Below, piece by piece: positions 16,034 to 39,613 of a stretch of 44,584 nucleotides of DNA. The stretch's first letter is position 1, and each line of letters opens with the position of its first letter. The position numbers and the translations under genes are program-made. The notes below the pieces were generated by a model. It was given only the letters and a program-made list of their open reading frames with translations. It did not search any database and had not been told where the DNA came from. The stretch spans positions 1-44,584 of IMG/VR virus record IMGVR_UViG_3300042905_001985. The stretch is one strand, 5' to 3'. This DNA comes from a virus.

Positions 16034-16101
16034 TCATCCTATGTCTAATAGTCGGGGGGCTAATCCTATTTGGCCTGACCTTCGGGATATCCACAAGATA
16101 A
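16030..16101 (+). CDS. Tiny single-TM peptide
   Basis: A 23-residue ORF starting in an ATGA overlap with the previous gene. It begins MIILCLIVGGLILFG and is almost entirely one hydrophobic helix with a short polar end. It belongs to a set of similar tiny membrane peptides at unit ends (17570, 19042, 19695, 26763, 26849). Its 3' end runs into the first DnaA-box-like sequence. Confidence 0.45.
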   Translation: MIILCLIVGGLILFGLTFGISTR

Positions 16102-16333
16102 TCCACAGGCTAGAAAGTTATCCACAGATCTGTCTTTCTATCCACAGGGTTAGGGTAGTTATCCACAGATGAGTTGGATATTAGTCAGAGTTATCCACAG
16201 GTCCGCCGCCCAAACTGTGGATAACCATGTGACTAATGTGGATAACCTGTGCATAACCTGTGTATAACTTGTGGATAACCTGTGGATAAGTTGTGCATAA
16301 CGTTATCCACACCTGTGGATAACCTGTGGAAAA
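16087..16333. other. Candidate replication origin: array of 16 DnaA-box-like 9-mers
   Basis: Nine exact copies of TTATCCACA or its complement start at 16118, 16159, 16191, 16216, 16237, 16270, 16281, 16303 and 16314. Seven single-mismatch copies start at 16087, 16099, 16138, 16248, 16259, 16292 and 16325. The left six boxes are on the plus strand; those to the right are on the minus strand except 16303. Apart from the end of a tiny ORF, nothing is encoded here. This is the strict bacterial DnaA-box consensus and its density equals that of a chromosomal oriC. It could be a DnaA-dependent phage origin or a site that titrates host DnaA. Confidence 0.75.
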
Positions 16334-16394: not shown

Positions 16395-16516
16395 CAGGCT
16401 TTTTGGCGTGCGAGGCTGAAAAGCCTTGCAGCATAAGGGTTTTCGACATGCCAAAAGTTGTTGCATACCAAGGGTTTTCGGCTGCGGCTGAAAAGCCTTG
16501 CGGCATAAGGACTTTT
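16395..16516 (+). terminator. Hairpin cluster downstream of the origin
   Basis: Two stems with GAAA tetraloops (AGGCT/AGCCT at 16413-16426; GGCT/AGCC at 16486-16497) are interleaved with three AAGG-type hairpin repeats ending in GGGTTTTC or GGACTTTTT. It resembles the insulator cassettes further right in a different order and probably stops transcription leaving the origin. Confidence 0.5.
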
Positions 16517-16618
16517 TGCATGGTAACGATTCTGTAACATCGATGTGATGTAGACCACATTAGAGACACCCTAGATATGTCCACATATCGGTCATATGGG
16601 TGTGTCAGATTAGGTAGA

Positions 16619-16640
16619 TGTCAGACCCCCATGATAGCCT
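16619..16640 (+). promoter_or_regulatory. Promoter P2 for the 16668 operon
   Basis: TGTCAGACCC, six nt, TAGCCT. Unlike the leaderless set, about 27 nt with an AAAGGAG ribosome binding site separate it from the ATG. An inverted repeat (ACACCC/GGGTGT around 16565-16605) lies upstream. Confidence 0.55.
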
Positions 16641-17637: not shown

Positions 17638-17726
17638 GTGCTTGGTATATAAGGGTTTTTGAGGTGCCAAAAGTCCTTATGTACCAAGGCTTTTCGGGCG
17701 TGAGCGCCCGGGCACGTTTCGTGCCC
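17638..17726 (+). terminator. Tandem-hairpin insulator cassette A
   Basis: Four hairpins in series: two weak AAGG-type stems ending in T runs (17641-17659, 17675-17694), then GGGCG-TGAG-CGCCC (17696-17709) and GGGCACG-TTT-CGTGCCC (17710-17726). It separates the 16668 unit from the next promoter. Confidence 0.7.
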
Positions 17727-17728
17727 GT

Positions 17729-17766
17729 TGTCAAGTTACGACACGCCAAAAAAAGTCACTGAAATA
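17729..17766 (+). repeat. TTACGA...TCACTGAAA element, copy 2
   Basis: TGTCAAGTTACGA, an A-run, then GTCACTGAAATA, between cassette A and promoter P3. Confidence 0.55.
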
Positions 17767-17796: not shown

Positions 17797-17818
17797 TGTC
17801 AGACCCATAGTGTAAGGT
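17797..17818 (+). promoter_or_regulatory. Promoter P3, leaderless
   Basis: TGTCAGACCC, six nt, TAAGGT; 6 nt to the ATG at 17825. Confidence 0.6.
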
Positions 17819-17824
17819 GGAACC

Positions 17825-17989
17825 ATGATGACCATCCTATCAAGCGCCTGTGGCGCGTCCCTTTCCGTAGTCGATGAGGCTACATTCGATGCGAACCCTA
17901 ACGGATTCGCTTGCTGCTCCGTGTGCGATTCGATCCTAGCGTGCCGTAACGCTTGGATGTCAGACCCAGATGCTAAGGTGATCGCATGA
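17825..17989 (+). CDS. Small Cys-containing protein, C-terminus built on an embedded promoter
   Basis: A 54-residue ORF, translated by eye, with no ribosome binding site; the upstream promoter predicts a leaderless mRNA. It has a CCSVC...C cluster (residues 30-40). Its last residues (WMSDPDAKVIA) are encoded by the next TGTC-type promoter, so the sequence is read both as protein and as promoter. Function unknown. Confidence 0.6.
   Translation: MMTILSSACGASLSVVDEATFDANPNGFACCSVCDSILACRNAWMSDPDAKVIA
17958..17979 (+). promoter_or_regulatory. Promoter P4, leaderless, inside the upstream gene
   Basis: TGTCAGACCC, six nt, TAAGGT; 6 nt to the ATG at 17986. It lies wholly within the 3' end of the 17825 gene. 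Confidence 0.6.
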
Positions 17990-18105
17990 ACAAGATGACA
18001 CACATTGACTATTCCGCCGCCGCGCAGGAGCGCGAGGCATGGAAGGCATGGCTCCAAGCCAAGGCCGCAGAGCGTAGACTGTCAGACCCTAGTGATAAGG
18101 TGTAG
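17986..18105 (+). CDS. Small helical basic protein with embedded promoter
   Basis: A 39-residue ORF, translated by eye, overlapping the previous stop (ATGA). It is mainly one amphipathic Ala/Lys/Trp helix (EREAWKAWLQAKAAERR). Its end LSDPSDKV is encoded by promoter P5. Coding is supported by the conserved layout of three neighbours, but it is short. Confidence 0.5.
   Translation: MNKMTHIDYSAAAQEREAWKAWLQAKAAERRLSDPSDKV
18080..18101 (+). promoter_or_regulatory. Promoter P5, leaderless, inside the upstream gene
   Basis: TGTCAGACCC, six nt, TAAGGT; 6 nt to the ATG at 18108. Confidence 0.6.
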
Positions 18106-18107
18106 TC

Positions 18108-18212
18108 ATGAATGAAGAAGAACTGTATGAGAACTTCCTCCGCTTGGAGGCCACCCTTGACCTTGACCCTAACCCTTGGGTGTCAGACCTAGATGCTAAG
18201 GTGGGTGCATGA
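18108..18212 (+). CDS. Small acidic protein with embedded promoter
   Basis: A 34-residue ORF, translated by eye, with an acidic helix (MNEEELYENFLRLEATLDL). Its C-terminal WVSDLDAKVGA is encoded by promoter P6. It starts from its own leaderless promoter. Confidence 0.5.
   Translation: MNEEELYENFLRLEATLDLDPNPWVSDLDAKVGA
18181..18202 (+). promoter_or_regulatory. Promoter P6, leaderless, inside the upstream gene
   Basis: TGTCAGACCT, six nt, TAAGGT; 6 nt to the ATG at 18209. Confidence 0.6.
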
Positions 18213-18340
18213 TGTGGAATGTTGTCTACAATGAGCGCGTGATCGCGGCATATGAGAGCCTGCAAGGTGCGCGTATGCACTTCGGCATGGTAATGAGTGC
18301 CGACAACTGGAACAACCTATACATTCGGAGGGAATGGTAA
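18209..18340 (+). CDS. Small protein preceding whiB-like gene
   Basis: A 43-residue ORF, translated by eye, ATGATG start overlapping the previous stop. The sequence contains NERVIAAYESLQGARMHF and ends NLYIRREW; the layout beta-hairpin plus helix suggests a small soluble fold. Its 3' end carries GGAGGG, the ribosome binding site of the WhiB-like gene. Confidence 0.6.
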   Translation: MMWNVVYNERVIAAYESLQGARMHFGMVMSADNWNNLYIRREW

Positions 18341-18342
18341 GC

Positions 18343-18588
18343 ATGTGGCAGGATAAGGCGGCGTGTCTTGACGCCGATTCATCGTTGTTTCTCACGGGCG
18401 TCACGTCCCGTGTCCTACAGGCTAAGGCAATCTGTGAGCGTTGCCCTGTAATTGACGATTGCCTTGCGTTCGCGCTGGACAATGAGGACTTTGAGCCGCA
18501 CGTCTATGGCGGCATGACTGGCGATGAGCGTAGGGTTATCGCTAAAGAAATCGAATCGGAAATGATGGGAGAGTATGTCAGTGCCTGA
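18343..18588 (+). CDS. WhiB-family Fe-S transcriptional regulator
   Basis: An 81-residue WhiB-like (Wbl) protein. The four Fe-S cysteines are at 8, 31, 34 and 40 (spacing Cx22Cx2Cx5C) in AACLD, AICERCPVIDDC, and the Gly-rich turn VYGGMTGDERR follows, as in the family. Such proteins carry a 4Fe-4S cluster, bind region 4 of the primary sigma factor and alter promoter choice; phage versions are known from mycobacteriophage TM4. Wbl proteins are essentially confined to actinobacteria and their phages, so this is good evidence for the host group. An ATG three codons upstream (18334) is an alternative start. Confidence 0.93.
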   Translation: MWQDKAACLDADSSLFLTGVTSRVLQAKAICERCPVIDDCLAFALDNEDFEPHVYGGMTGDERRVIAKEIESEMMGEYVSA

Positions 18589-18751
18589 CGTTAGCATCTT
18601 TGCGCTGGCCGCGTTTCTCGCGGTCGCATCACTCGCGGTGTTCGCACTTGCCTATGGGTGGTTCGACAATAAGCGCGAGCAATGGTATCAAGACGGGTGG
18701 ACCGATGGATGGGAAGCCTATAGCGAGGTGTCGAAAGTCCTTGATACATAA
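18575..18751 (+). CDS. Small membrane protein with soluble tail
   Basis: A 58-residue ORF, translated by eye, overlapping the whiB-like stop. The first ~30 residues form one TM helix (IFALAAFLAVASLAVFALAY), then a charged Trp/Tyr-rich tail (QWYQDGWTDGWEAY). A GTG two codons downstream has better ribosome-binding spacing. The last codons extend into the first hairpin of cassette B. Confidence 0.6.
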   Translation: MSVPDVSIFALAAFLAVASLAVFALAYGWFDNKREQWYQDGWTDGWEAYSEVSKVLDT

Positions 18752-18826
18752 GGGTTTTCAGGCGTGCCCGAAAGTCCTTGGTACATAAGGGTTTTCGGGC
18801 CTCGCGCCCGGGCACGTTCCGTGCCC
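18739..18826 (+). terminator. Tandem-hairpin insulator cassette B
   Basis: Two hairpins of type CCTT-7nt-AAGG followed by GGGTTTTC (18739-18753, 18776-18790), then GGGC/GCCC (18797-18809) and GGGCACG-TTC-CGTGCCC (18810-18826). Same order as cassettes A and C. Confidence 0.7.
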
Positions 18827-18827
18827 A

Positions 18828-18866
18828 ATGTCAAGTTACGACGGTGTGAAATAAGTCACTGAAATA
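18828..18866 (+). repeat. TTACGA...TCACTGAAA element, copy 3
   Basis: TGTCAAGTTACGA...AAGTCACTGAAATA, directly before the TTGTAT of promoter P7. Confidence 0.55.
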
Positions 18867-19125: not shown

Positions 19126-19155
19126 TTGACCGTTGTCAGTCCCCTAGTGTAAGGT
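19126..19155 (+). promoter_or_regulatory. Promoter P8, leaderless
   Basis: TTGACC (-35), 18-nt spacer with TGTCAGTCCC, TAAGGT (-10); 6 nt to the ATG at 19162. It has the best -35 of the leaderless set and no hairpin cassette before it. Confidence 0.7.
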
Positions 19156-19698: not shown

Positions 19699-19763
19699 TC
19701 ATCTTGCTAAGCGTGCTAGGGATGCTACTCATGCTAGGGCTAATGCTAGGGATGCGGAGGTGA
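19695..19763 (+). CDS. Tiny single-TM peptide
   Basis: A 22-residue ORF with a GTG start in a GTGA overlap. It begins VIILLSVLGMLLMLG and ends GMRR, a Leu/Met/Gly helix with a basic end, very like the 17570 peptide. Its stop codon abuts cassette C. Confidence 0.5.
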   Translation: MIILLSVLGMLLMLGLMLGMRR

Positions 19764-19857
19764 AAACCCTTATGCCATAAGGGTTTTTGGCAGGTCCGAA
19801 AAGTCCTTGTATACCAAGGGTTTTCGGGCCTGCGGCCCGGGCACGCTTTGCGTGCCC
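19763..19857 (+). terminator. Tandem-hairpin insulator cassette C
   Basis: Four hairpins: AAAACCCTTATG/CATAAGGGTTTT (19763-19787), CCTTG-TATAC-CAAGG plus T-run (19805-19823), GGGCC-TGC-GGCCC (19826-19838), GGGCACGC-TTT-GCGTGCCC (19839-19857). Base changes in both arms relative to A and B preserve pairing. Confidence 0.75.
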
Positions 19858-19858
19858 T

Positions 19859-19901
19859 GTCAAGCCTTTTACGACGATCATTACGAAATCACTGAAATAT
19901 T
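19859..19901 (+). repeat. TTACGA...TCACTGAAA element, copy 4
   Basis: TGTCAAG, TTACGA twice, AAATCACTGAAATA, followed by a second TCACGGAAAAA copy at about 19902. Confidence 0.55.
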
Positions 19902-19926: not shown

Positions 19927-19955
19927 TTGAGACTGTCAGACCATACTGCTATCTT
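19927..19955 (+). promoter_or_regulatory. Promoter P9 with leader
   Basis: TTGAGA (-35), 17-nt spacer with TGTCAGACCA, TATCTT (-10). A 27-nt stretch with AGGAGG follows before the ATG at 19983, so this unit uses an ordinary leader. Confidence 0.7.
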
Positions 19956-20447: not shown

Positions 20448-20520
20448 GCGTCTGTAGAGCAGCGGAGTGCTCGCCACCCTGTCACGGTGGAGGTCGTGGG
20501 TTCGAATCCCATCAGATGCG
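20448..20520 (+). tRNA. tRNA-Asp (GTC)
   Basis: 73 nt with acceptor GCGTCTG/CAGATGC, anticodon loop CTGTCAC giving GTC, T-arm GGTTCGAATCC and discriminator G; no encoded CCA. A perfect hairpin (TGAGCATG...CATGCTCA) ends 4 nt before it. Confidence 0.92.
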
Positions 20521-20552
20521 CGTAAACAAACTACAAACTCTAAGGAGTCTAG

Positions 20553-20687
20553 ATGGTAAAGGTAGAGATGCCGCGTGGTGATTGGGATGCAGTCCTAACG
20601 TGCCTCCGCGAGTTGATGGATCAGGGGTGGATCGTAAAGTCCCTATACAATGACATTATCGACCAAGTAGACGAACAGGAGTATTAG
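20553..20687 (+). CDS. Small acidic protein
   Basis: A 44-residue ORF, translated by eye, with AAGGAG 6 nt upstream, starting 32 nt after tRNA-Asp. It is helical (DWDAVLTCLRELMDQGW, YNDIIDQVDEQEY). Family unknown. First of four small genes up to tRNA-Asn. Confidence 0.65.
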   Translation: MVKVEMPRGDWDAVLTCLRELMDQGWIVKSLYNDIIDQVDEQEY

Positions 20688-20688
20688 A

Positions 20689-20856
20689 ATGGCTTTGCTT
20701 ATCGTACACCCAGGAACAGGCACGATCATCGATGTCAACGATGGGACGCTCATTGTTGATATTCCAGACACGAGAGAGGGAATCGGAAGTCTGGATGATG
20801 AGGACATTCTCCTGTATGCTGAACGTCACGGGAAACTGCTAAAGGGAGAGGTGTAA
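20689..20856 (+). CDS. Small acidic protein
   Basis: A 55-residue ORF, translated by eye, starting 1 nt after the previous stop. It has a beta N-terminal half (LLIVHPGTGTIIDVNDGTLI) and a helical C-terminal half (DDEDILLYAERHGKLLKGEV). Similar short proteins occur in actinophage early regions; function unknown. Confidence 0.65.
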   Translation: MALLIVHPGTGTIIDVNDGTLIVDIPDTREGIGSLDDEDILLYAERHGKLLKGEV

Positions 20857-20858
20857 CA

Positions 20859-20990
20859 ATGGCACACTTGCCGCCGCTTCATTGGGACTTCTGTCTCAAC
20901 TGCGAGGGTGCGCTAACCGATCAGCAGATCGATGACGACGATTCGTATTGCCCAACATGCATTGACCTACTCGTAGGAGTGTCCGAATGA
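20859..20990 (+). CDS. Small zinc-ribbon protein
   Basis: A 43-residue ORF, translated by eye, with CLNC (residues 12-15) and CPTC (31-34) knuckles 15 residues apart and an acidic middle. It overlaps the next ORF (ATGA). A zinc-ribbon fold is likely; the partner is unknown. Confidence 0.6.
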   Translation: MAHLPPLHWDFCLNCEGALTDQQIDDDDSYCPTCIDLLVGVSE

Positions 20991-21070
20991 AACTTGACTT
21001 TGCCGATCACCTGATGGCATCCTTGTTTGACCCTAATCACTGGTGCAAGTATTGCGAGGAAGGCGAGTAG
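20987..21070 (+). CDS. Tiny protein with CxxC
   Basis: A 27-residue ORF in an ATGA overlap with the previous gene, ending HWCKYCEEGE. Short, but the coupling and single CxxC knuckle favour real coding. A run of nine C and tRNA-Asn follow. Confidence 0.4.
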   Translation: MKLDFADHLMASLFDPNHWCKYCEEGE

Positions 21071-21082
21071 CCCCCCCCCTAA

Positions 21083-21154
21083 TGGCGTGTGGCGCAATGG
21101 CAGCGCAATCGGCTGTTAACCGATGGGTTGCAGGTTCGAATCCTGCCACGCCAG
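21083..21154 (+). tRNA. tRNA-Asn (GTT)
   Basis: 72 nt with acceptor TGGCGTG/CACGCCA, D-arm GCGC...GCGC, anticodon loop CTGTTAA giving GTT, T-arm CAGGTTCGAATCCTG, discriminator G. A GC hairpin follows after 5 nt. Confidence 0.92.
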
Positions 21155-21159
21155 CGCCC

Positions 21160-21176
21160 GGGCACGTTCCGTGCCC
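21160..21176 (+). terminator. GC hairpin after tRNA-Asn (cassette D)
   Basis: GGGCACG-TTC-CGTGCCC, the same terminal hairpin as cassettes A-C, without the AAGG-type hairpins. Confidence 0.65.
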
Positions 21177-21177
21177 T

Positions 21178-21231
21178 TTGTCAAGTTACGAACCGTGTGA
21201 TTACGATCACAGAAAAAGAGTCACTGGAAAT
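21178..21231 (+). repeat. TTACGA...TCACTGGAAA element, copy 5
   Basis: TGTCAAGTTACGA, a second TTACGATCACAGAAAA, then GTCACTGGAAAT just before the -35 of P10. Confidence 0.55.
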
Positions 21232-21233
21232 GC

Positions 21234-21262
21234 TTGATACTGTCGTACCCTACTGCTAGTCT
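21234..21262 (+). promoter_or_regulatory. Promoter P10 with leader
   Basis: TTGATA (-35), 17-nt spacer with TGTCGTACCC, TAGTCT (-10). The ATG at 21295 is 32 nt downstream with a purine-rich AAGAGAAAGAGAG before it. Confidence 0.7.
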
Positions 21263-21294
21263 GTATATACCTACTAAGAGAAAGAGAGTCCAGC

Positions 21295-21681
21295 ATGGGA
21301 GACCGCGCTAACTTCGGAATCCGTCAGACTGACGGCAACACCATCTTCATCTACGGCCATTGGGCAGGTGAGGGTATGCTTGCACGATTCGCAAATGCAC
21401 TTGATAAGGCTGACGTTCGTCTGCCTTATGACGATGCCTATGGCACTCGTATCATCGTCTCGCAGTTGATTGGCGATGATTGGAACCAGCCGCTTGGTTG
21501 GGGCATCACGCTCAACAAGTTGTGTGACAACGAGCACAAGGTGCCTGTCTACGATCTAGAGACTGATACTGTCAGTCTGTATGACTTTGACTGGCATTAC
21601 AACAAGACCACCGACCTTATCTTCACGATGCCTCGCATCGACTTTGTTCGCAAGTATTCCAAGACCAAGATTGGAGTCTGA
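21295..21681 (+). CDS. Conserved actinophage protein (GDRANFG family-like)
   Basis: A 128-residue soluble alpha/beta protein. The opening GDRANFGIRQTDGNTIFIYGHWAG is a pattern I associate with a family of short proteins in actinobacterial phages and hosts whose function is unknown. Further segments are YGTRIIVSQLIGDDW and VPVYDLETDTVSLYDF. It is first in the two-gene unit ending at tRNA-Glu. Confidence 0.75.
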   Translation: MGDRANFGIRQTDGNTIFIYGHWAGEGMLARFANALDKADVRLPYDDAYGTRIIVSQLIGDDWNQPLGWGITLNKLCDNEHKVPVYDLETDTVSLYDFDWHYNKTTDLIFTMPRIDFVRKYSKTKIGV

Positions 21682-21683
21682 GC

Positions 21684-22070
21684 ATGAGCAACTACACAAT
21701 GACCGCCGTTACTGGCGTAGCCGTGTCTGAGCATGAGAAGGCGCTAGCCGATGTTGAGAGGCTAGGCAGGCGTGTATCCGAACTAGAGGGTATGCGCGAG
21801 CGGCTGTCTGAATATCTTTCAGAGTTAGAGATTGGCGACGAGATTACTCTAGGGTGTGCCCAACAGATCGCAGAGATCATGGCCATCACGCCTCGTCGGT
21901 ACATCAATCTGCGAGTGTCTGCTGAGTTTGATGTAACGGTGTCCGTTCCATTTGACTATGACGTAGACACAGACAATCTTGAGAATGATCTATCCGTGTC
22001 GATCAGTGAGCATGGTGATGTTAGTATTCTTGATGTCATGAGTGAAGTGGTCAACATCGAAGAGCAGTAA
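21684..22070 (+). CDS. Hypothetical protein with N-terminal coiled coil
   Basis: A 128-residue acidic protein. Residues ~15-50 are a heptad-rich helix (EKALADVERLGRRVSELEGM), the rest a beta-rich domain (RYINLRVSAEFDVTVSVPFDYDVD). No enzyme motif. It starts 2 nt after the previous stop and is co-transcribed from P10. Confidence 0.7.
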   Translation: MSNYTMTAVTGVAVSEHEKALADVERLGRRVSELEGMRERLSEYLSELEIGDEITLGCAQQIAEIMAITPRRYINLRVSAEFDVTVSVPFDYDVDTDNLENDLSVSISEHGDVSILDVMSEVVNIEEQ

Positions 22071-22084
22071 GAGGAAATGGCGCT

Positions 22085-22108
22085 AGCATACCGCTGCCAA
22101 CGTATGCT
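22085..22108 (+). other. Hairpin abutting tRNA-Glu
   Basis: AGCATAC-10nt-GTATGCT, perfect 7-bp arms, ending 3 nt before the tRNA 5' end. Similar hairpins precede tRNA-Asp and the tRNA-Trp candidate. Confidence 0.5.
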
Positions 22109-22111
22109 GAT

Positions 22112-22184
22112 GTCCCCATCGTCTAGTGGCCAAGGACGCCGCCCTTTCAAGGCGGTAGCACGGGTTCGAATCCCGTTGGGGATA
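22112..22184 (+). tRNA. tRNA-Glu (TTC)
   Basis: 73 nt with acceptor GTCCCCA/TGGGGAT (one G-T pair), anticodon loop CTTTCAA giving TTC, T-arm CGGGTTCGAATCCCG, discriminator A. A GGGAGGGC...GCCCTCCC hairpin starts 2 nt after it. Confidence 0.92.
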
Positions 22185-22186
22185 CT

Positions 22187-22256
22187 GGGAGGGCGGTTGT
22201 GACTGGACTCCGACTGCCCTCCCTCCAACTTATAGGCCCGGGCGCGTTTCGCGCCC
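22187..22256 (+). terminator. Hairpins after tRNA-Glu (cassette E)
   Basis: GGGAGGGC (22187-22194) pairs with GCCCTCCC (22216-22223); then GGGCGCG-TTT-CGCGCCC (22240-22256), a covarying version of the terminal hairpin seen elsewhere as GGGCACG. Confidence 0.65.
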
Positions 22257-22257
22257 A

Positions 22258-22311
22258 TTGTCAAGCCTTTTACGATCCCTTTACGACGATCACTGAAAAA
22301 TCACAGAAATA
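22258..22311 (+). repeat. TTACGA...TCACTGAAA element, copy 6
   Basis: TTGTCAAG, two TTACGA hexamers, then ATCACTGAAAA and ATCACAGAAAT in tandem, upstream of P11. Confidence 0.55.
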
Positions 22312-22337
22312 TCATCAATGTTTATCTTGGAAAAGTC

Positions 22338-22366
22338 TTGTGACTGTCAGACCCGTAGTGTATCGT
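22338..22366 (+). promoter_or_regulatory. Promoter P11 with leader
   Basis: TTGTGA (-35), 17-nt spacer with TGTCAGACCC, TATCGT (-10). The leader to the ATG at 22406 carries GGAGA. Confidence 0.7.
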
Positions 22367-22405
22367 TGTCCCATAAGTTGATTCACTACCGATTGGAGAT
22401 ACACA

Positions 22406-23407
22406 ATGTCACATGATCTAGAGAAGGGTAGCAATGGTGAGGTTTCTTTCGCCTCCCTCCGCGAACCCGCATGGCACGGCCTTGGCACCGTGTTCACTGA
22501 GGAAAAGTCCACCCGTGAGATGCTGTCTGCCGCGTACCTTGACAACTGGAACGTGCGTCTAGAGTCCGTCAACGCGCTTGCTCCCGAATACAACTTCGTC
22601 AGCGATTCGTTCATGGTCGTGCGCGATAACCCGTTCGACAACTCGCAGGACGTTCTCTCCGTCGTGGGTGAGCGTTACAACGTCGTACAGAATGAGGAAC
22701 TGTTCTCGTTTGGTGACAATATCCTTGACGGCGGTGGCCGTTGGGAGACTGCTGGCTCTATCAAGCAGGGTCGCGTGGTGTTCGGCTCACTTGCGCTGGA
22801 GCGTGAGACCGTCCTTGATCCTAGCGGTGTGAGTGACAAGGTGCTGTCGTATCTGCTGCTGCACACCTCACACGATGGTTCGGTGGCTGTTCAGGCTTCC
22901 ATCACGCCCATCCGTGTCGTGTGCCAGAATACGCTCAACTTCGCTCTCAGGTCTGTCAAGCAGTCTTACAAGATTCGCCACACCTCTACGGTGTCTGGCA
23001 AGGTTGCTGCTGCGCGTGAGGCGCTTGGTCTTGCTCATGCCTACATGGACGAGTTTGATACAATGGCTCAGGCACTCATTGAGGCTGAGATCACCAAGGC
23101 TCAGTTCGATAAGATCGTTGAGACCGCCTACCCTCGTCCTGACAAGGATGTCAAGGGTGCCATGACCAAGTGGCAGAACAAGGTTGACCAGATTCAGGAA
23201 ATCTGGACTTCCGACACGACCAACATGATCGCCACGACTGCGTGGGGTGCTCTCAATGCCATGACGGAGCGCCTTGACTGGTTCCGTACTGGTCGCGGTG
23301 AGCGTGGTCAGGAGAACGTGCTCGCTGCCGCGAGCGGCTTCGATCCTGTGACCAACGCAGAGAAGGGTCGCCTGCTCTCCATCGTGAAGCAGACGGTCGG
23401 AGTCTGA
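22406..23407 (+). CDS. DUF932 phage/plasmid-like protein
   Basis: A 333-residue protein of the DUF932 family (phage/plasmid-like protein TIGR03299 type): REPAWHGLGTVF near the N-terminus, LNWNV-like strand (DNWNVRLESV), VVGERYNVVQNEELFSF (~90), GRVVFGSLALERE, and TPIRVVCQNTLNFAL followed by RHTSTVSGKVAAAREAL. Family members are widespread on phages and plasmids and lie near replication or recombination genes; the molecular function is not established. It is a monocistronic unit from P11, with the tRNA-Trp/Tyr pair just downstream and probably on the same transcript. Confidence 0.88.
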   Translation: MSHDLEKGSNGEVSFASLREPAWHGLGTVFTEEKSTREMLSAAYLDNWNVRLESVNALAPEYNFVSDSFMVVRDNPFDNSQDVLSVVGERYNVVQNEELFSFGDNILDGGGRWETAGSIKQGRVVFGSLALERETVLDPSGVSDKVLSYLLLHTSHDGSVAVQASITPIRVVCQNTLNFALRSVKQSYKIRHTSTVSGKVAAAREALGLAHAYMDEFDTMAQALIEAEITKAQFDKIVETAYPRPDKDVKGAMTKWQNKVDQIQEIWTSDTTNMIATTAWGALNAMTERLDWFRTGRGERGQENVLAAASGFDPVTNAEKGRLLSIVKQTVGV

Positions 23408-23417
23408 TCCACCGTCC

Positions 23418-23440
23418 TGAGCATGACGCTAAACTGCTCA
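23418..23440 (+). other. Hairpin abutting tRNA-Trp candidate
   Basis: TGAGCA-11nt-TGCTCA, ending 3 nt before the tRNA. A near copy (TGAGTA...TGCTCA, with shared flanks GTCC and TAAAC) lies at about 20237-20260. Confidence 0.5.
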
Positions 23441-23443
23441 CAT

Positions 23444-23512
23444 GCCACCAGCGCAGGGACGCAGACGAGCCTCCAAAACTTGTCGTGCTAGGTTCGATTC
23501 CTAGTGGTGGTG
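23444..23512 (+). tRNA. Probable tRNA-Trp (CCA) with short D-arm
   Basis: 69 nt. Acceptor GCCACCA/TGGTGGT, anticodon loop CTCCAAA giving CCA, T-arm CTAGGTTCGATTCCTAG, discriminator G. The D region is about four nt short and the anticodon stem closes with a C-A mismatch, so it may be atypical or decayed. It lies 4 nt before tRNA-Tyr. Confidence 0.65.
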
Positions 23513-23516
23513 CTCC

Positions 23517-23596
23517 GCCTAGTAGCCCCCAAGGTGGGGGAGCGGTCTGTAAAACCGTCGCCGTTGGCATGGTTGGTTCGATTCCAACACTAGGCA
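23517..23596 (+). tRNA. tRNA-Tyr (GTA)
   Basis: 80 nt. Acceptor GCCTAGT/ACTAGGC, anticodon loop CTGTAAA giving GTA, a long variable arm as expected for bacterial tRNA-Tyr, T-arm GTTGGTTCGATTCCAAC, discriminator A. Confidence 0.88.
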
Positions 23597-23612
23597 CAAA
23601 AGACTTGACAAA

Positions 23613-31515: not shown

Positions 31516-31620
31516 TTATCTGTTTGATCTTTTTTGATTGACAATTCTCTTTTGCTTGCGTAGGTCATTGATGAGTTCGTCTAGTTCTTCTTCTTCCTCG
31601 TCAATCCACCACTCGCTCAT
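31516..31620 (-). CDS. Tiny Glu-rich protein
   Basis: A 34-residue ORF, translated by eye: SEWWIDEEEEELDELINDLR then a basic end KQKRIVNQKR. Its ATG overlaps the stop of the sugar dehydratase gene. Probably one charged helix; function unknown. Confidence 0.5.
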   Translation of the reverse strand: MSEWWIDEEEEELDELINDLRKQKRIVNQKRSNR

Positions 31621-32621
31621 AGAGTTAGCCATTCTGGGTGTGCCAATGTCCACTTCACCGTTCTTTCCAAAGATTCTTCTAACGATAACGGAGCCTTCCA
31701 GCCCGTAGCAGCAATTTTATCACCGTCCAAGGCATAACGCAAGTCATGTCCTGGGCGGCTTGAGTGGAAGTCTACAAGTTCATAGTATAGTGGCTTGCCC
31801 ACATAAGATGAAACCATTTCTGCCATTTCAAAATTATTGACCTCACGATTACCAATAATATTAAACTTGGCAGGCACGGAACTCTGTCCGTATAGCGGGG
31901 AAGGCAACTGAAGGCAGTGAAGAAGGGCATGTGCCTGGTTCCTAGCGTGTAAATAATATCTACTGCCAAACTCACCAGTCGGAGAACTATGAATTGTTAC
32001 AGTCTCTCCAGCAAGCACCTTCTTGATAATCATAGGAACAAACTTCTCTGGATCTTGCATTTCTCCGATAATATTCATGGTGTTGGTGATGATCAGAGGT
32101 ACGCCATATGTTCGCCAATACGAGAAGGCAATAGATTCTTGTGCCGCCTTGGACGCACTGTATGGATTAGATGGGTAGTATGTCTCCCATTCCTTATGGT
32201 TGTGACCTAGTGGCGCTGGCCCGTAGACTTCATCTGTGGATACATGCAAAAACTTTTCTATGTCTCTAGTCCTTGCCCAATCAAGCATGTTGCAGATCAA
32301 AGCAACATTGTTCTGCACGAATGGTCCTGGCTCAATAATAGATCTATCTACATGTGATTCACTTGCTACGTTCATCACATAATCTATGTGGCCGATCTTG
32401 GCATCAAGCACGGGAGAGATTGGAGCACAAAGATCATGGATGAGAACATGAACGCGGTCGGCGTAATCTAATCCATCGACCGCCACTCGTATACGGTCAG
32501 TGATCCCACGATGCCTAAAACTAGATAGGCAAACTATTTCCCAATCAGTGTTGATGAGTAGGTGTCGTAGCACATGGCTACCGACGAAGCCGCTGGCTCC
32601 TGTTAGCAAAACTCTTTTCAT
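31617..32621 (-). CDS. dTDP-glucose 4,6-dehydratase-like enzyme
   Basis: A 334-residue extended short-chain dehydrogenase. The NAD site is TGASGFVGSHV (~8-18), the catalytic strand is HVSTDEVYGPAP (~118-129, with the TDE signature of RmlB-type dehydratases), YSASKAAQE carries the catalytic Tyr-Lys, and the C-terminal RPGHDLRYALD (~285-295) is the substrate-binding motif typical of RmlB. It would make dTDP-4-keto-6-deoxyglucose. Together with the PLP aminotransferase at 37774 and the GNAT domain at 39613 this suggests an acetylated amino sugar. ATGA overlap with the methyltransferase gene. Confidence 0.9.
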   Translation of the reverse strand: MKRVLLTGASGFVGSHVLRHLLINTDWEIVCLSSFRHRGITDRIRVAVDGLDYADRVHVLIHDLCAPISPVLDAKIGHIDYVMNVASESHVDRSIIEPGPFVQNNVALICNMLDWARTRDIEKFLHVSTDEVYGPAPLGHNHKEWETYYPSNPYSASKAAQESIAFSYWRTYGVPLIITNTMNIIGEMQDPEKFVPMIIKKVLAGETVTIHSSPTGEFGSRYYLHARNQAHALLHCLQLPSPLYGQSSVPAKFNIIGNREVNNFEMAEMVSSYVGKPLYYELVDFHSSRPGHDLRYALDGDKIAATGWKAPLSLEESLERTVKWTLAHPEWLTL

Positions 32622-33205
32622 ACTTTCCAAATTCCAATCACTATGCTATCATCTTCTGTATTTTCTGGAACAGTATCGATTATACGGTATGCCACATCGG
32701 TTCTTCCAGAAAGAAATGTATCCCATTCGAATATTGTCTGCTGCCACGACTCTCGTTTCTTTGATACATCTTCGATCATATATAATCCATCATTCTTAAG
32801 ATGCCTAATCATATATTCAAACGTGGCCCTAGCGTGCTGGAAAACATGAGATCCATCATCTAAAACGATATCAAACTTAGGATACTTAAACTCATTCATA
32901 AAGTTTGATAAATCTAAAATTGATGACTGGTCTGCCTCATAAGTATAGATATTATCCTTCTGAAATATCTTAGACGCTGCTATATCAATTCCATAAACAG
33001 AGGCGCTAGGGAAAAGTCTACCCCAAGCATGTAGCGAACTATTTTCTGGCCTGGTGTTTGTAATTCCAATTTCTAGAAATGATTGGACATTATCAAAGTC
33101 CAATCTTTCAAATAGTTCGTAGTATGCACCGCAGTAGTTGTGGCTCGTCTGCTTATCCGAACCGCTTGAATTTATTTCTTCAATTAAGGTTTCTAAACTA
33201 AACAT
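32618..33205 (-). CDS. Class I SAM-dependent methyltransferase
   Basis: A 195-residue methyltransferase: SAM-binding FLEIGITNTRPENSSLHAWG (~43-62), ASVYGIDIAAS (~67-77, motif II), FDIVLDDGSHVF (~109-120, motif IV with metal-type acidic pair) and LKNDGLYMIEDV (~135-146). This layout matches the sugar O-methyltransferase/cephalosporin-hydroxylase-like group found in antibiotic and glycan clusters. The substrate is likely a sugar of this cluster. Confidence 0.8.
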   Translation of the reverse strand: MFSLETLIEEINSSGSDKQTSHNYCGAYYELFERLDFDNVQSFLEIGITNTRPENSSLHAWGRLFPSASVYGIDIAASKIFQKDNIYTYEADQSSILDLSNFMNEFKYPKFDIVLDDGSHVFQHARATFEYMIRHLKNDGLYMIEDVSKKRESWQQTIFEWDTFLSGRTDVAYRIIDTVPENTEDDSIVIGIWKV

Positions 33206-33959
33206 ACCCTAGCCTCTTTTTCTCATTGTAGGTAGAAGCCCAAGACTGAACCTCATGGTAGTAATCTAATTCTTCTTGTGGCACTGGCTGGTCTTTCCAC
33301 CAGCCCATATGCTCACATGTAAATCTTCCAGCAATTCTTACACCAGAAGTTCCAGTCAATCCGTTTCTATTTGCCCTGAGTTCTTGAATAAGTCGGCTCT
33401 TCTTAAATAGACAAAAGGTTGTGTCAATCGGGGCAGAGTATACTGGATCTTTTTCTTCGTATACTTTAACTTCATTCGTCCAGTACGCCCCCTCCCAGAT
33501 ATGAACCTGATTATGATTAAAAAACTTATCCTTTGTTTCGAATATATCTATCGCAAAGCCAGCCTTCGATACATTGTAGGTGTCAATTATTCTTTTCATC
33601 TTGGAAATAAAATTCTTTGGCAACGATGAATTGAATACTAGATCTGGGTCAGTCAGGATAAAATATTCTGGTAGCACAGAAAGTATCTCTGGACTTTCTC
33701 CAAATATTCTAGGCCCCCAGTTATTATCGAACCTAACAACTCTCTTGCCATCAGAGGATAGGCTATCTAGAAAATCAATCATCGGCTGGTAGGTGGATTT
33801 ATTGTCGCAAATAATAAAGTTGGTTAGCCCACGCTCTTCTAGTTGATCAACCATAAACTTTGCATACGTCACCAAATTAAATGTGGGAATGAGAATAGGG
33901 ACCGAATCTGGTTCAATGGTTTGAATTTGATGATAGAGTTTGGCAGCCTCACAAATCAT
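33198..33959 (-). CDS. GT-A-type glycosyltransferase
   Basis: A 253-residue protein with an opening nucleotide-sugar fold (VPILIPTFNLVTYAKFMVDQ, NFIICDNKSTYQPM), an FILTDPDLVFN segment with DxD-like Asp pair (~97-107), and PIDTTFCLFKKS towards the C-terminus. No membrane segment. Probably a soluble GT2-like transferase acting on the glycan built by this operon. The next gene overlaps by 8 nt. Confidence 0.75.
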   Translation of the reverse strand: MICEAAKLYHQIQTIEPDSVPILIPTFNLVTYAKFMVDQLEERGLTNFIICDNKSTYQPMIDFLDSLSSDGKRVVRFDNNWGPRIFGESPEILSVLPEYFILTDPDLVFNSSLPKNFISKMKRIIDTYNVSKAGFAIDIFETKDKFFNHNQVHIWEGAYWTNEVKVYEEKDPVYSAPIDTTFCLFKKSRLIQELRANRNGLTGTSGVRIAGRFTCEHMGWWKDQPVPQEELDYYHEVQSWASTYNEKKRLGYV

Positions 33960-34564
33960 CTATTTTCTCCCAATACTTCTGGTACATGAACGTATCCATA
34001 TCTTTTTACTAGTTCTTGAAATATGTATCCATCTGCTGAGTGATCATATCTATACCACCAGCCAATTGACTCCCAAGCAGATCTACTAATGACACATTGT
34101 AGCATATCAACCTTGCCCATTACGGGTGGAATCCCAGAGAAATATTTGATACCAAACTTCTCATGACTACATGCAAACACAAGACAGTCCGCCTTTGTCT
34201 TATCAAGTTTGTCAGATATAGCCTGCAAAGCCTGCGGGTAAAGTATGTTGTCGATATTAAAGTTTATTATGTATTCGCCCTCTGACTGACGCATACCAAG
34301 ATCTCTAGAGTGATGGCCCCATCCGTAGCCAGCGTAGAATTGTTCAGTTCCGTAGACACCATAATGCTTATCAGTTTCAATATATTTGAACTCTATGCCA
34401 GCAGACTCATACTCTTCTGGTCCAGAGGGTTTTGGTCCGTCATGAACAATGATCAACTCAAAGTCTTTAAAGGTTTGTGCGGCTAGAGATCGAAGCCCCT
34501 CCAACATTCTATCTCTTGGAACATATGGCTCATAGTCAGTTGCTACGATTGAAAATTTTGTCAT
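33956..34564 (-). CDS. Glycosyltransferase family 2-like protein
   Basis: A 202-residue GT2-like protein: FSIVATDYEPYVPRDRML, QTFKDFELIIVHDGPKPSG (~31-49), HHSRDLGMRQSEGEYIINFN (~83-102) and INFNIDNILYP (DxD equivalent NID). Short for GT2 but complete in the catalytic half. ATGA overlap with the following gene. Confidence 0.78.
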   Translation of the reverse strand: MTKFSIVATDYEPYVPRDRMLEGLRSLAAQTFKDFELIIVHDGPKPSGPEEYESAGIEFKYIETDKHYGVYGTEQFYAGYGWGHHSRDLGMRQSEGEYIINFNIDNILYPQALQAISDKLDKTKADCLVFACSHEKFGIKYFSGIPPVMGKVDMLQCVISRSAWESIGWWYRYDHSADGYIFQELVKRYGYVHVPEVLGENR

Positions 34565-34605
34565 ACTTATATCCTATACCTTAAACAATCCATAGTCCAT
34601 CGTTT

Positions 34606-35502
34606 TTATATTTGTCCATCTATCCAAGACAGTGCATCAACATTCGGAACCCATCCAATTGCATTAGATATCTTGCTTATATCGGCTAATGTTTCTATTG
34701 CCTCTCCTAAACGACTTTCTATGAATACTATGTTGCTAGAAATACTTTTAGCAATCTCTATTACTGACAAGTTTGTCCCTGTTGCTACATTATAAATTTG
34801 TCCAAATGAAGATGGTTGAATGTCTGCCTCTGCAAACATTATATTTGATCTAACCACATCATGAACATGAACGAAATCCCGCCTTTGACTTCCATCTCCG
34901 ACAACAGTAAGTGGTAGGCCGTCTCTATATTGTTTTAGAAAAATTCCTATGACTGGAGCGTACTGCCCACCATCTGGTGATCTTTCCCCATATACATTGA
35001 AATATCTTAAAATAATTGTCTGTAGCCCATATAAATCTGTGTATAGTTTACAAACTTTTTCAGCGGCTACCTTTGACATAGAATAGGGGTTTAAGCAGTC
35101 ATCTTTCTGATCTTCATAATTTGGTTTTGGATTATTTCCATATCCAGATGAAGTAGATGAGTATATAAATCTTTTAACGTTGGCTTCCCTGGAACATTGC
35201 AAGACTACTGTTGTCCCAAAAACATTTTTAAATACTGCACCAGTAGGATCTAAGATTGCTGGTTGAAGGCGAGATTCTGCGGCTAGATGAAAAACAAAAT
35301 CAACGTTATCAAATAGGGGCCTTATGGAATTGTAGTCAGTTATGTCCAACTTATAATTTTTTGCTAGGTCATTCCAATAAAAATTAGTATTTAGACCAGA
35401 ACTTTCATTATCAATACAAATAACCTCATGACCATTAGATATCAACGTATCAACCAAATGCGATCCAATAAAACCAGCCCCGCCCGTTACTAAACTTTTC
35501 AT
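34606..35502 (-). CDS. NAD-dependent sugar epimerase/dehydratase (GalE-like)
   Basis: A 298-residue extended SDR: TGGAGFIGSHLVD (~5-17) NAD site, YSSTSSGYGNNPKP (~113-126), YSMSKVAAEKVC (catalytic Tyr/Lys ~138), YFNVYGERSPDGG (~165) and VGDGSQRRDFVHVHDVV (~199-215). It fits UDP-sugar 4-epimerases and related nucleotide-sugar epimerases of O-antigen clusters. The substrate is unknown. I use the ATG after the overlapping TAG stop. Confidence 0.85.
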   Translation of the reverse strand: MKSLVTGGAGFIGSHLVDTLISNGHEVICIDNESSGLNTNFYWNDLAKNYKLDITDYNSIRPLFDNVDFVFHLAAESRLQPAILDPTGAVFKNVFGTTVVLQCSREANVKRFIYSSTSSGYGNNPKPNYEDQKDDCLNPYSMSKVAAEKVCKLYTDLYGLQTIILRYFNVYGERSPDGGQYAPVIGIFLKQYRDGLPLTVVGDGSQRRDFVHVHDVVRSNIMFAEADIQPSSFGQIYNVATGTNLSVIEIAKSISSNIVFIESRLGEAIETLADISKISNAIGWVPNVDALSWIDGQI

Positions 35503-35503
35503 T

Positions 35504-36124
35504 CTATATTCCATTCTGTCTAAAAAAACTATAATCGACATTAGAATTTTCTACATCAGAAAATCCATTGCTTTGAAATGCTAAATGAGGAATTGTGATA
35601 TAGCAGTTAAAGTGTTTTTGCAATTCACCATAAACAACATCTACTTGATAGGGCATTGATAATATAGCGTCTATTGCTTTTTTAAAAAACGTATTTCTCA
35701 TTATAATTGAATGTGAAGAATATCCTCCAGTCATTTTGTAAATATTTTTATTTACAAACTTTCTCTGTCCAGTATGAGGATTGGCACAAAGATAAATCAA
35801 ATCCCAGTCATTTGGTATCTGTTCTTCTAGGCTCTCAAACTTTTCGTTAAAATTGTCATCAAAAATGATATCATCTTCTGCAATAAATATTTTATCGTAT
35901 TGATTTTTTATAGCCATATTTAAGACTTTAAGATGGGACAGTCGGCACCCATTAGCGCCAGGTTTTAGTCCAGCGTATTCTGGATATAAACTTCCATCTA
36001 TAGCAGACACTCGGCGGACAGAAATTCCAATTTTTTTAAACTCTACCTGTGCCTGTTCCCACCTATCAGTTCTTTTATCCAAGTTAATGCAATATGTTAT
36101 GTCAAAATAATCTTTAAAACTCAT
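35504..36124 (-). CDS. Glycosyltransferase family 25-like protein
   Basis: A 206-residue GT25-type transferase (LPS galactosyltransferase LgtB family): ITYCINLDKRTDRWEQAQ near the N-terminus, GANGCRLSHLKVLNMAI (~54-70), and IFIAEDDIIFDDNF (~79-92) carrying the DxD-like acidic pair. ATGA overlap with the GT11 gene. Acceptor unknown. Confidence 0.85.
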   Translation of the reverse strand: MSFKDYFDITYCINLDKRTDRWEQAQVEFKKIGISVRRVSAIDGSLYPEYAGLKPGANGCRLSHLKVLNMAIKNQYDKIFIAEDDIIFDDNFNEKFESLEEQIPNDWDLIYLCANPHTGQRKFVNKNIYKMTGGYSSHSIIMRNTFFKKAIDAILSMPYQVDVVYGELQKHFNCYITIPHLAFQSNGFSDVENSNVDYSFFRQNGI

Positions 36125-36903
36125 ACTATAATCCAATCATTTGGTATGATATCGCCAATATCATGATTGGCATGGGCTGGGCCAAACCATTCTCTTGGCG
36201 CAACAATTTTTTTATCTGAATTTTTGTTCAGATACGCAGCCCACCAACTAAATGTACTATTTGCTAGTATAGATGATTTACATCTGGATATCAAATAAAA
36301 ATCTTCCTGGTAGGTCCCCGACTGAAAAATAAATCTATCTCCATTAAAAATATCTTGCCGTTTACACCATTCTATATCATCTGAAAATACCATTATCTTT
36401 TCATCTGCAAAATATTTTAATGCATTTTTATAATATCTAGGGAATATGTTTTTTAAATTATCTTCTATTCCAATGTAGTCGGTCCTTCTGACATGTAAAG
36501 AAACATAGTCCAGTGGGCCGTCTAAAATATCTATCGAACTCTTAAAAGTAAAGTCACTAAGTATTTGATCTTTAATATGATCAAAATATTTCCATGACTG
36601 AAAGTATCCATCTAGATCTGTATCATCTTCTACTGAATTAAATAACGACTCATCAAAATTCATAGATTTTTCAATATAAATTTTTGATGGATTAATAATT
36701 TCAATATTATTCTTAGCAATAGATGAAAGTTTAAATAAACTAAAAATATTACTTCGTAACTGATACTTAGATCCAAATTGTTGTGGAGGAGGAATCTTCC
36801 ACTCAAGTCCGTTCTTATCTGCTACGCCACGCAAACAAGCATATTGAAACATTTGATTCCCCAAATGTCCATTATTTCCAATTTTTGTATTATAGATTGC
36901 CAC
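36121..36903 (-). CDS. Alpha-1,2-fucosyltransferase-like (GT11)
   Basis: A 260-residue GT11 protein. All family motifs are present: GHLGNQMFQYA (~12-22), YVSLHVRRTDYIG (motif I, ~133-145, with the GDP-binding HxRRxD), IMVFSDDIEWCK (motif II, ~170-181) and SSILANSTFSWWAAYL (motif III, ~210-225). Such enzymes transfer L-fucose (or a similar GDP-6-deoxyhexose) in alpha-1,2 linkage. The donor can come from the Gmd/Fcl pair at 42.7-44.6 kb. Start codon GTG. Confidence 0.92.
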   Translation of the reverse strand: MAIYNTKIGNNGHLGNQMFQYACLRGVADKNGLEWKIPPPQQFGSKYQLRSNIFSLFKLSSIAKNNIEIINPSKIYIEKSMNFDESLFNSVEDDTDLDGYFQSWKYFDHIKDQILSDFTFKSSIDILDGPLDYVSLHVRRTDYIGIEDNLKNIFPRYYKNALKYFADEKIMVFSDDIEWCKRQDIFNGDRFIFQSGTYQEDFYLISRCKSSILANSTFSWWAAYLNKNSDKKIVAPREWFGPAHANHDIGDIIPNDWIIV

Positions 36904-37777
36904 GCCTGTCCCTTAAAAATTCTTTATATCTGTTTAAGATATACCTGTCTTCAAAAAGATGTGTAGTATGTTGATCGGGTCGGCGTAACTTTCCATCTTT
37001 TGTGGAGTTGCACTCCCATTCATTTTTTAATTCAGCCTGATCTGAAAGAAGAAGATTGCCAAGTCTTTGGCATTCCCATCCATGTTTCTTACTATATTCT
37101 TGTTGAATAAGCCGCACACCATGTTCTGCCTTCCTAATCAAATGATCGTAGGATCGTACTGGAACCTGATAACATTTAAAATTTTCGGAAACCTCATTTG
37201 TATTAAAAATAATTTTATTTAAATCTTTGTATTTGAAATAATGTGCCCCTGGCCCTACATGGGTGTATGGAGATACCTTTAGGATAAATTTACTAGGCCA
37301 CCGATATTCTACTGTAGATCGAACACCATTGATGATATCTTTTTCTTCTGTAGTATATTCAACTACTTTCCAAATAATATTTTTATAAACATTATTTAAA
37401 TTATATGATTTATTTTGAACAAAGTTTTCTATTTCTACTTCAATGTAATCAGAGTTTATGTTGTTTATATCTACTGCAAGACCGTTGTCAGATTTCCAAA
37501 TCTCATCTGCATCAAAGAACACCGCCCATGAAAATCCCATACCAAGAGCCATATCATAGAGTTCATTCATAATCTGCTCCTGATGAAATGGTCCATCATT
37601 AGATATTACAGTAACTCTTTTATCCCCAGTAGATATTTTATTCAACAACTCTAAAGTTCCATCTGTAGATCCATTGTCACATATTATTATTCCATCTAAT
37701 CCTTGGTTTAAGTGATGCCAAAGACAAAACTCTATTATATCTACTTCATTTCTTACTATAGAAATGCCACAAATCAT
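36890..37777 (-). CDS. Glycosyltransferase family 2/92-like protein
   Basis: A 295-residue transferase: SIVRNEVDIIEFCLWHHLNQ (~5-24), GLDGIIICDNGSTDGTLELL (~25-44), AVFFDADEIWKS (~84-95, DxD), then RWPSKFILKVSPYTHVG and the histidine-rich GAHYFKYKDL. This pattern fits Glyco_tranf_2_4-type enzymes. ATGA overlap with the aminotransferase gene. Confidence 0.82.
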   Translation of the reverse strand: MICGISIVRNEVDIIEFCLWHHLNQGLDGIIICDNGSTDGTLELLNKISTGDKRVTVISNDGPFHQEQIMNELYDMALGMGFSWAVFFDADEIWKSDNGLAVDINNINSDYIEVEIENFVQNKSYNLNNVYKNIIWKVVEYTTEEKDIINGVRSTVEYRWPSKFILKVSPYTHVGPGAHYFKYKDLNKIIFNTNEVSENFKCYQVPVRSYDHLIRKAEHGVRLIQQEYSKKHGWECQRLGNLLLSDQAELKNEWECNSTKDGKLRRPDQHTTHLFEDRYILNRYKEFLRDRRGNL

Positions 37778-38853: not shown

Positions 38854-39613
38854 TCAAGTCTCCTCTTATCGGGATTATTATATCATCGCCCTCGCCCATC
38901 TGTTCAAGATTTCCTAGGTTGTGATTAAAAATTGCTGAATACTGATCTGATATATCTGTGATTGCATATCCTTCTGTTGTAAAAGTCTCTAGAAACATAA
39001 GTTGATTTGTTTCTGCCATTTCATAAGACGTTGATCCATATAAAAGAAAAATATTGTCCTTATTTTTCAATATATGTTTTGCTGCCGCCCCATTTAAAAG
39101 TCCATTTGAAATTGAAGCATGAATCTTTGGTGCCAAATCTATAGACAATCCTATTCTTTGTGTAAGATTTTGTATGTCTGCATATGTAGGAGGAGTTGTA
39201 CGAACGGCGACGTATGCAATATTTTCTTTCATTCTATCTAAAAACGCATCAATAAAATTAGTACTCTTTGGTATGTAATCATCCTCTATCAAAAAGTAAT
39301 AGTCGTGACCGCCAGCAATCAAGTCTTTTTTGATAATGTCATTCCACGCTCCATAAGAAAAGTCAATATTTTCTCTGAACATTACAGTGATTTTTTTATT
39401 TATATTGTATGAATTAACGATATCTATAATTTTTTCTACATCAGTGCTTTCACTTTTATTAATAACAAAGTAAACAGTATTTATTTTTTTTGGCCTTTTC
39501 TTAACAAACTGTAGATGTTTTTCTAAGAAATAGTATTGATCGTAGTAAATTCCAGAAACTCTATTGAACCTTCTTTCTTCAAAGAAGAAGCATACGCAAT
39601 ATGCTATTTTCAT
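38837..39613 (-). CDS. GT-A-type glycosyltransferase-like protein
   Basis: A 258-residue protein opening MKIAYCVCFFFEERR, with NTVYFVINKSES, AWNDIIKKDLIAGGHDYYFLIEDDYIP (~90-115), where FLIEDDY is a DxD-type metal-binding strand, and a region (VRTTPPTYADI, NGLLNGAAAKHIL) as in many polysaccharide transferases. No family number assigned. It overlaps the aminotransferase gene by 17 nt. Confidence 0.65.
   Translation of the reverse strand: MKIAYCVCFFFEERRFNRVSGIYYDQYYFLEKHLQFVKKRPKKINTVYFVINKSESTDVEKIIDIVNSYNINKKITVMFRENIDFSYGAWNDIIKKDLIAGGHDYYFLIEDDYIPKSTNFIDAFLDRMKENIAYVAVRTTPPTYADIQNLTQRIGLSIDLAPKIHASISNGLLNGAAAKHILKNKDNIFLLYGSTSYEMAETNQLMFLETFTTEGYAITDISDQYSAIFNHNLGNLEQMGEGDDIIIPIRGDLNDITF

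Follow-up and report, generated by a model that had tools for sequence, protein, structure and literature searches.

Three small proteins of an uncultured actinophage appear to owe their C-termini to the promoters of the genes that follow them. In the viral DNA analyzed here (the whole of a 44,584-nt stretch from IMG/VR record IMGVR_UViG_3300042905_001985, hereafter the window), three predicted promoters, P4, P5, and P6, lie inside the last codons of small genes. The reading that we favor, at a probability of about 0.7, is that these are three of at least eight plus-strand actinophage promoters of the RecA-NDp class, that the peptide tail shared by the upstream proteins is a by-product of promoter sequence, and that host PafBC is the likely reader.

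Four copies of the element and three small genes are found within 17797-18212. P4 (TGTCAGACCCAGATGCTAAGGT, 17958..17979, + strand), P5 (TGTCAGACCCTAGTGATAAGGT, 18080..18101, +), and P6 (TGTCAGACCTAGATGCTAAGGT, 18181..18202, +) all conform to TGTCAGACC-N7-TAAGGT, with an ATG exactly 6 nt downstream of each; the full segments read TGTCAGACCCAGATGCTAAGGT-GATCGC-ATG (from 17958), TGTCAGACCCTAGTGATAAGGT-GTAGTC-ATG (from 18080), and TGTCAGACCTAGATGCTAAGGT-GGGTGC-ATG (from 18181). The fourth copy (17797..17818, +) is intergenic and stands 6 nt from the ATG of the first small gene, a 54-aa ORF at 17825..17989 (+) that was assigned to no family and has no homologue among the fetched loci. The second gene (17986..18105, +; 39 aa) has orthologues in seven viral loci, and the third (18108..18212, +; 34 aa, ending in DPNPWVSDLDAKVGA) has orthologues of two kinds, some bearing the promoter tail and some lacking it; the coding status of both is backed by these orthologues, changes in the body of gene 18108 being mostly synonymous. 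The translations of the three ORFs end in WMSDPDAKVIA, RRLSDPSDKV, and WVSDLDAKVGA. The initial annotation had placed P4-P6 within the last codons of these genes and had called the three C-termini nearly the same; sequence and translations confirm both statements, with P4 encoding SDPDAKV in gene 17825, P5 SDPSDKV in gene 17986, and P6 SDLDAKV in gene 18108.

Further copies extend the set along the same strand. A 43-aa ORF (18209..18340, +) is the one predicted to be started by P6, and the P4-P6 transcription unit also includes a WhiB-family transcription factor (18334..18588, +; E = 3e-17). Another leaderless copy, TGTCAGTCCCCTAGTGTAAGGT (19134..19155, +), again lies 6 nt before an ATG and is predicted to start a DUF7178 / phrog_3842 phage protein (19162..19698, +), homologues of which are sometimes annotated as glycosylase. 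Three copies are leadered: 16619..16640 (+) is followed by AAAGGAG and the ATG at 16668, 19934..19955 (+) by AGGAGG and the ATG at 19983, and 22345..22366 (+) precedes gene 22406; in all three the -10 differs from TAAGGT and the leader includes a Shine-Dalgarno-like sequence. The eight window copies all lie on the + strand, the first at 16619 and the last at 22345, with TGTCAG in 8/8 and mostly ACC in the letters that follow. In 200 first-order Markov simulations of the window, the pattern TGTCAGnCC-N7-TAnnnT, present eight times in the window, had a mean count of 0.05, and the strict leaderless form TAAGGT-N6-ATG, present five times, a mean of 0.0.

The shared tail can be understood from the geometry of these units. 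The parts of the predicted promoter would be a -26 element, TGTCAGACC, and an extended -10, TGnTAnnnT (here with TAAGGT), 10 nt after TGTCAG; transcription would begin 7 nt past the -10, which in P4, P5, and P6 is the A of the next ATG (17986, 18108, and 18209, respectively), giving a leaderless mRNA. Leaderless initiation with the start site on the A of the ATG is probable for all three. Promoter, start site, and start codon would in this way be held at fixed distances, and neighboring genes touch or overlap, so that the promoter must occupy the last approximately eight codons of the upstream gene. At P4 and P6 the stop of the upstream gene is the TGA within an ATGA overlap, and at P5 it is an in-frame TAG 5 nt ahead of the ATG. 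All three promoters are read in the same frame because the distance from -10 to ATG is fixed at 6 nt and because of where the upstream stop lies (ATGA or in-frame TAG). The codons forced in this frame are nTG TCA GAC Cnn nnn GnT AAG GTG, and since the ATGA overlap fixes the frame, the motif would be read as (M/L/V)-S-D-x-x-(D/A)-K-V in any gene; the tail can thus be regarded as a by-product of promoter constraint on the last codons. One alternative frame ends at the TAA or TAG of the -10, where present. In the related loci, ORFs of 25 aa or longer that extend from upstream into a leaderless copy, some of which may be chance open frames, use the SDP frame in 35 cases, the frame ending in VRPLC in 14, and the CQT frame in six.

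Comparison with relatives indicates that the tail comes and goes with the promoter. With P6, gene 18108 is 34 aa long and ends in DPNPWVSD..KV.. (the window, L020, L019, L024, L003, L036, and L008); without P6 it is 26 aa long and ends in DPNPWEN or DPNPWEA (L013, L023, and L015). Full-length orthologues accordingly divide into seven with promoter and tail (window counted) and three with neither, the sequences being few and not independent, with L013 and L023 apparently one phage type. The promoter-less orthologues break after CCCTTGGG and are followed by a different gene. The initial annotation had attributed the tails to dual use of the DNA and not to homology, and had named as contrary evidence any homologue with the same C-terminal peptide and no promoter; the three promoter-less orthologues, which end in WEN or WEA instead, bear it out. 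P5 is kept in L013, L023, L021, L020, L019, L031, and L029, where gene 17986 retains RRLSDPSDKV or a close variant along with it and the downstream gene varies between phages.

Codon usage in the tail points the same way. Across orthologues TCA, GAC, and AAG (and the GT after AAG) are invariant, and the spacer codons change amino acids, with L, P, or H, then D, S, or H, then A or D in the variable positions; in the body of gene 18108, seven codons vary synonymously and one nonsynonymously. An alignment of C-termini had been proposed as a check on whether conservation follows promoter consensus, and in the few sequences at hand it does, with motif bases fixed, spacer amino acids variable, and the 18108 body mostly synonymous in its changes. 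The tails might alternatively reflect common ancestry or selection for a peptide function (as a degron or for binding a partner, for example), the likeness in DNA being secondary, and an SDP.DAKV tail does recur in several protein families. That account is very improbable, however: orthologues without the promoter are intact genes yet lack the tail, spacer residues change freely while synonymous positions of the motif codons do not, the element is also found between genes, and where the upstream ORF is in another frame it ends in VRPLC or CQT. Homology as the cause was rejected on the promoter-less orthologues and the codon pattern, and a tail set by the promoter, and not by protein ancestry, is the reading well supported by these alignments.

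The suggestion that a promoter-gene module was duplicated by insertion at gene ends fares less evenly. Comparison of gene order in relatives did reveal gain or loss of modules: in L031 and L021 the DPNPWVSDP.DKVKP end, the promoter, and the downstream gene are fused to another upstream half, and gene 17986 with P5 stands before different genes. The direction of change, insertion or loss, cannot be polarized from these cases, and the unit that is swapped includes the downstream gene.

Is the element a promoter at all? The strict leaderless form was found by pattern scan in 40 stretches of IMG/VR viral contigs, many of which carry 5-26 motif copies on one strand; the extended form TGTCRG-N7-TGnTAnnnT reaches 26 per record when whole records are searched, nearly all on one strand, and the reversed pattern was absent (0) from the virus records. 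Spacing is tightly held. The distance from TGTCRG to TAnnnT is 10 nt in 334 instances vs 2-92 at any other distance, and a spacer one base shorter, used as a spacing control, gave two matches in all 39 records. ATG lies 6 nt from the -10 in 94 cases vs 0-25 at other distances; because the 40 loci were selected by the strict pattern, the proportion of leaderless copies is inflated, an effect that is smaller for the spacing peak, the +1 A, and the non-seed copies. Leaderless ORFs reach at least 30 aa in 89/92 cases vs 34% for random ATGs. For the 178 leadered copies (no ATG at 6 nt), the +1 base is A in 89% and is preceded by C/T in 92%, a pattern that transcription starts would be expected to show. 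The TG of the extended -10 is present in about 90% of copies. Alignment columns -9 to -3 contain no TTGACA, and some window copies have TTG around there. Two related phage records (L009 and L037), with about a dozen copies, mostly use TGTC[AG]GTGG, with host-like letters in the -26 element, and not TGTCAGACC; the TGG form also occurs in scattered copies outside these two.

An element with no promoter function, acting instead in translation (with TAAGGTG serving as Shine-Dalgarno sequence) or as a regulatory or recombination site, would explain why TAAGGTG resembles anti-16S sequence 5-6 nt before the ATG and why gene modules are swapped beside the element. It is nonetheless improbable, given that 149/178 leadered copies are followed by a Shine-Dalgarno-like leader and then a start codon, so that these genes have a translation signal of their own downstream of the element; that the 10-nt box spacing, the extended -10, and the C/T-A 7 nt past the second box are promoter features; and that -10 letters besides TAAGGT are common. 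On these patterns, the predicted promoter type is one that recurs across many uncultured actinophages. The predicted geometry fits that of mycobacterial leaderless transcripts, which begin, past a -10, at the first base of the start codon and have no Shine-Dalgarno sequence (PMC4633059); the phage class differs from these in being recurrent and in being predicted from sequence only.

The phage copies probably belong to the RecA-NDp/PafBC promoter type, which in hosts drives DNA-damage genes and which the initial annotation had not named. The RecA-NDp consensus is tTGTCRGtg-N8-TAnnnT, and the host letters after TGTCAG are TGG. TGTCRG, the 10-nt distance, TAnnnT, a -26 element without a conserved -35, and an occasional 6-nt distance to ATG, as expected of a leaderless gene, are common to both; the phage copies differ in that they are often many per genome, mostly have ACC for TGG, and lie inside upstream coding sequence. 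One host example is close: the region of the Streptomyces coelicolor gene SCO6735, which has a RecA-NDp promoter, can be read from a knock-out primer as TGTCAGTGGTGGCCCGTACGGTGGCGTCATG and matches the phage copies in boxes, spacing, and the 6 nt to ATG (PMC5087735). Two further papers identify RecA-NDp with the site at which PafBC activates transcription by sigma adaptation (PMC6789036, PMC8223512), and according to a third PafB recognizes the -26 motif, PafC touches domain 4 of SigA, and single-stranded DNA switches PafBC on (PMC11804915). No report of phage promoters of the RecA-NDp type was found in the literature covered, which takes in a minority of subscription journals and preprints.

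The leaderless phage-type pattern has only seven matches in 84,980 GTDB genomes, all actinobacterial, before genes for RadA/Sms, uracil-DNA glycosylase, DprA, a DUF2779 protein weakly similar to RecB, a DUF222-HNH protein, and, twice, mycothiol-S-transferase/DinB-like proteins. These matches precede DNA-damage or repair genes, a result that concerns the motif in hosts and not phage genes. Strict leaderless forms are rare in hosts: the ACC form was found in 2/396 genomes of the phylum, both of them metagenome-assembled genomes (MAGs) already found, and the TGG form twice in 80 genomes. One MAG (G039) encodes two adjacent WYL proteins, one with an HTH_PafC domain, and has motif copies ahead of a RecQ-like helicase gene and of an ORF with weak RecF/SMC similarity, its other matches being without such a gene; a second (G040) also has two adjacent WYL genes. 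Both are actinobacterial and neither is a known host of the phage. Within the window, ORF 18575 begins with a sequence (18576-18597, TGTCAGTGCCTGACGTTAGCAT) that agrees with the motif as hosts have it (TGTCAGTG-N8-TAGCAT); no gene starts at the expected place, and the match is probably due to chance.

Which protein reads the promoters can be approached by elimination. A phage-encoded PafBC-like or sigma factor was considered and rejected, as the window and 38 related records yielded no detectable WYL protein and the 22 records searched no sigma70_r2; the promoters are therefore most likely served by host SigA, probably together with host PafBC. Host RNA polymerase with SigA and with PafBC activated by single-stranded DNA would then read the promoters, and phage replication, by exposing single-stranded DNA, would raise expression of the phage genes. 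The motif with its spacing, strand, and position, the joint gain or loss of tail and promoter, and the sites ahead of host repair genes are direct observations; for the phage promoters we infer where transcription starts, that translation is leaderless, that PafBC is required, and that single-stranded DNA sets the timing. The timing idea is attractive because a DnaA-box-like array, a possible origin, adjoins the promoter cluster. Three features count against PafBC, namely ACC for TGG after TGTCAG in most phage copies, the rarity of the ACC leaderless form in hosts, and an extended -10 that could act without it.

These features lend some weight to another arrangement, in which the copies are plain SigA extended -10 promoters (TGnTAnnnT) and TGTCAGACC is bound not by PafBC but by a phage factor, most likely WhiB. 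The TG of the extended -10 in about nine-tenths of copies, the presence of WhiB in the same unit as P4-P6 and in 28/38 related records, and the dominance in phages of an ACC variant that is rare in hosts would all fit. This is the less likely arrangement: 10 motif-bearing records, which may be fragments, have no detectable WhiB (e.g., G006 with 26 copies and G008 with 16), host sites of the same layout precede DNA-repair genes, and the WhiB proteins known so far work alongside SigA close to -35, not at -26. With host PafBC as the preferred reader, a broader proposal has about even odds, that in a broad group of uncultured actinophages many units of nonstructural small genes are under PafBC-type promoter copies, with the host sensor of single-stranded DNA as a replication-timed activator and the leaderless form writing the shared tail.

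If this is correct, a host activator that senses single-stranded DNA would be the on-switch for many phage genes, an activator-based counterpart to prophages listening to LexA. Actinophage transcription units might then be readable from sequence alone, and the hundreds of copies would offer a natural test bed for the grammar of PafBC promoters. The tails would furnish a clear case in which a promoter, and not protein function, dictates a C-terminus, and would caution that a C-terminal peptide common to several small phage proteins is no proof of homology.

WhiB, the closest isolates, and the related loci together point to an actinobacterial host. The closest isolates are Stanwilliamsviridae, the Streptomyces phages Wakanda, Yaboi, and NootNoot, with about 56% identity in the portal and about 59% in phrog_1221. 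Like the window phage, NootNoot and Wakanda have tRNA genes and WhiB; unlike it, Stanwilliamsviridae have no motif array in the parts examined. The array was not found in NootNoot and Wakanda (both covered in part), phiC31, or Gordonia phage Yvonnetastic, which counts against the reading favored here; Microbacterium phage Savannah has one good motif copy. That the array came from the closest isolates was rejected (NootNoot, Wakanda, Yvonnetastic, and Kimona are at or near background), as were phiC31-type early promoters, phiC31 containing no motif copy. The region has no DNA similarity to cultured phages and no meaningful match to plasmids. Freshwater whiB-encoding actinophages, uncultured or recently cultured and including Planktophila phages E7/F5, share whiB and moderate GC; E7/F5 encode a sigma-70 factor, in contrast to the 22 records searched here, in which none was found (PMC10202952, PMC6802176). 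The word "promoter" is absent from PMC6802176, and no promoter is named in the part of PMC10202952 covered.

Other features of the window deserve mention. Sixteen DnaA-box-like sites (TGTGGATAA, with at most one mismatch, on both strands and partly at 11-nt spacing) are packed into about 250 bp at 16087-16333, just upstream of the first promoter, a density not found in the fetched relatives; the array is possibly a replication origin. Strong hairpin arrays at 16415-16520, 17640-17735, 18728-18832, and 19760-19865 are built of AAAGTCCTTGGTAC..AAGGGTTTTC plus GCCCGGGCACG..CGTGCCC (z of -5.6 to -7.7 for the three that were folded), with TTACGAC..GTCACTGAAATA repeats nearby; they stand between the units headed by promoters and resemble terminators. 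Small genes at 20448-23597 are interspersed with four single tRNA genes (Asp, Asn, Glu, and Tyr). On the - strand from about 31600 to 44500, a long run of ORFs judged by eye to resemble glycosyltransferases, sugar epimerases/dehydratases, and aminotransferases is possibly a surface-glycan island.
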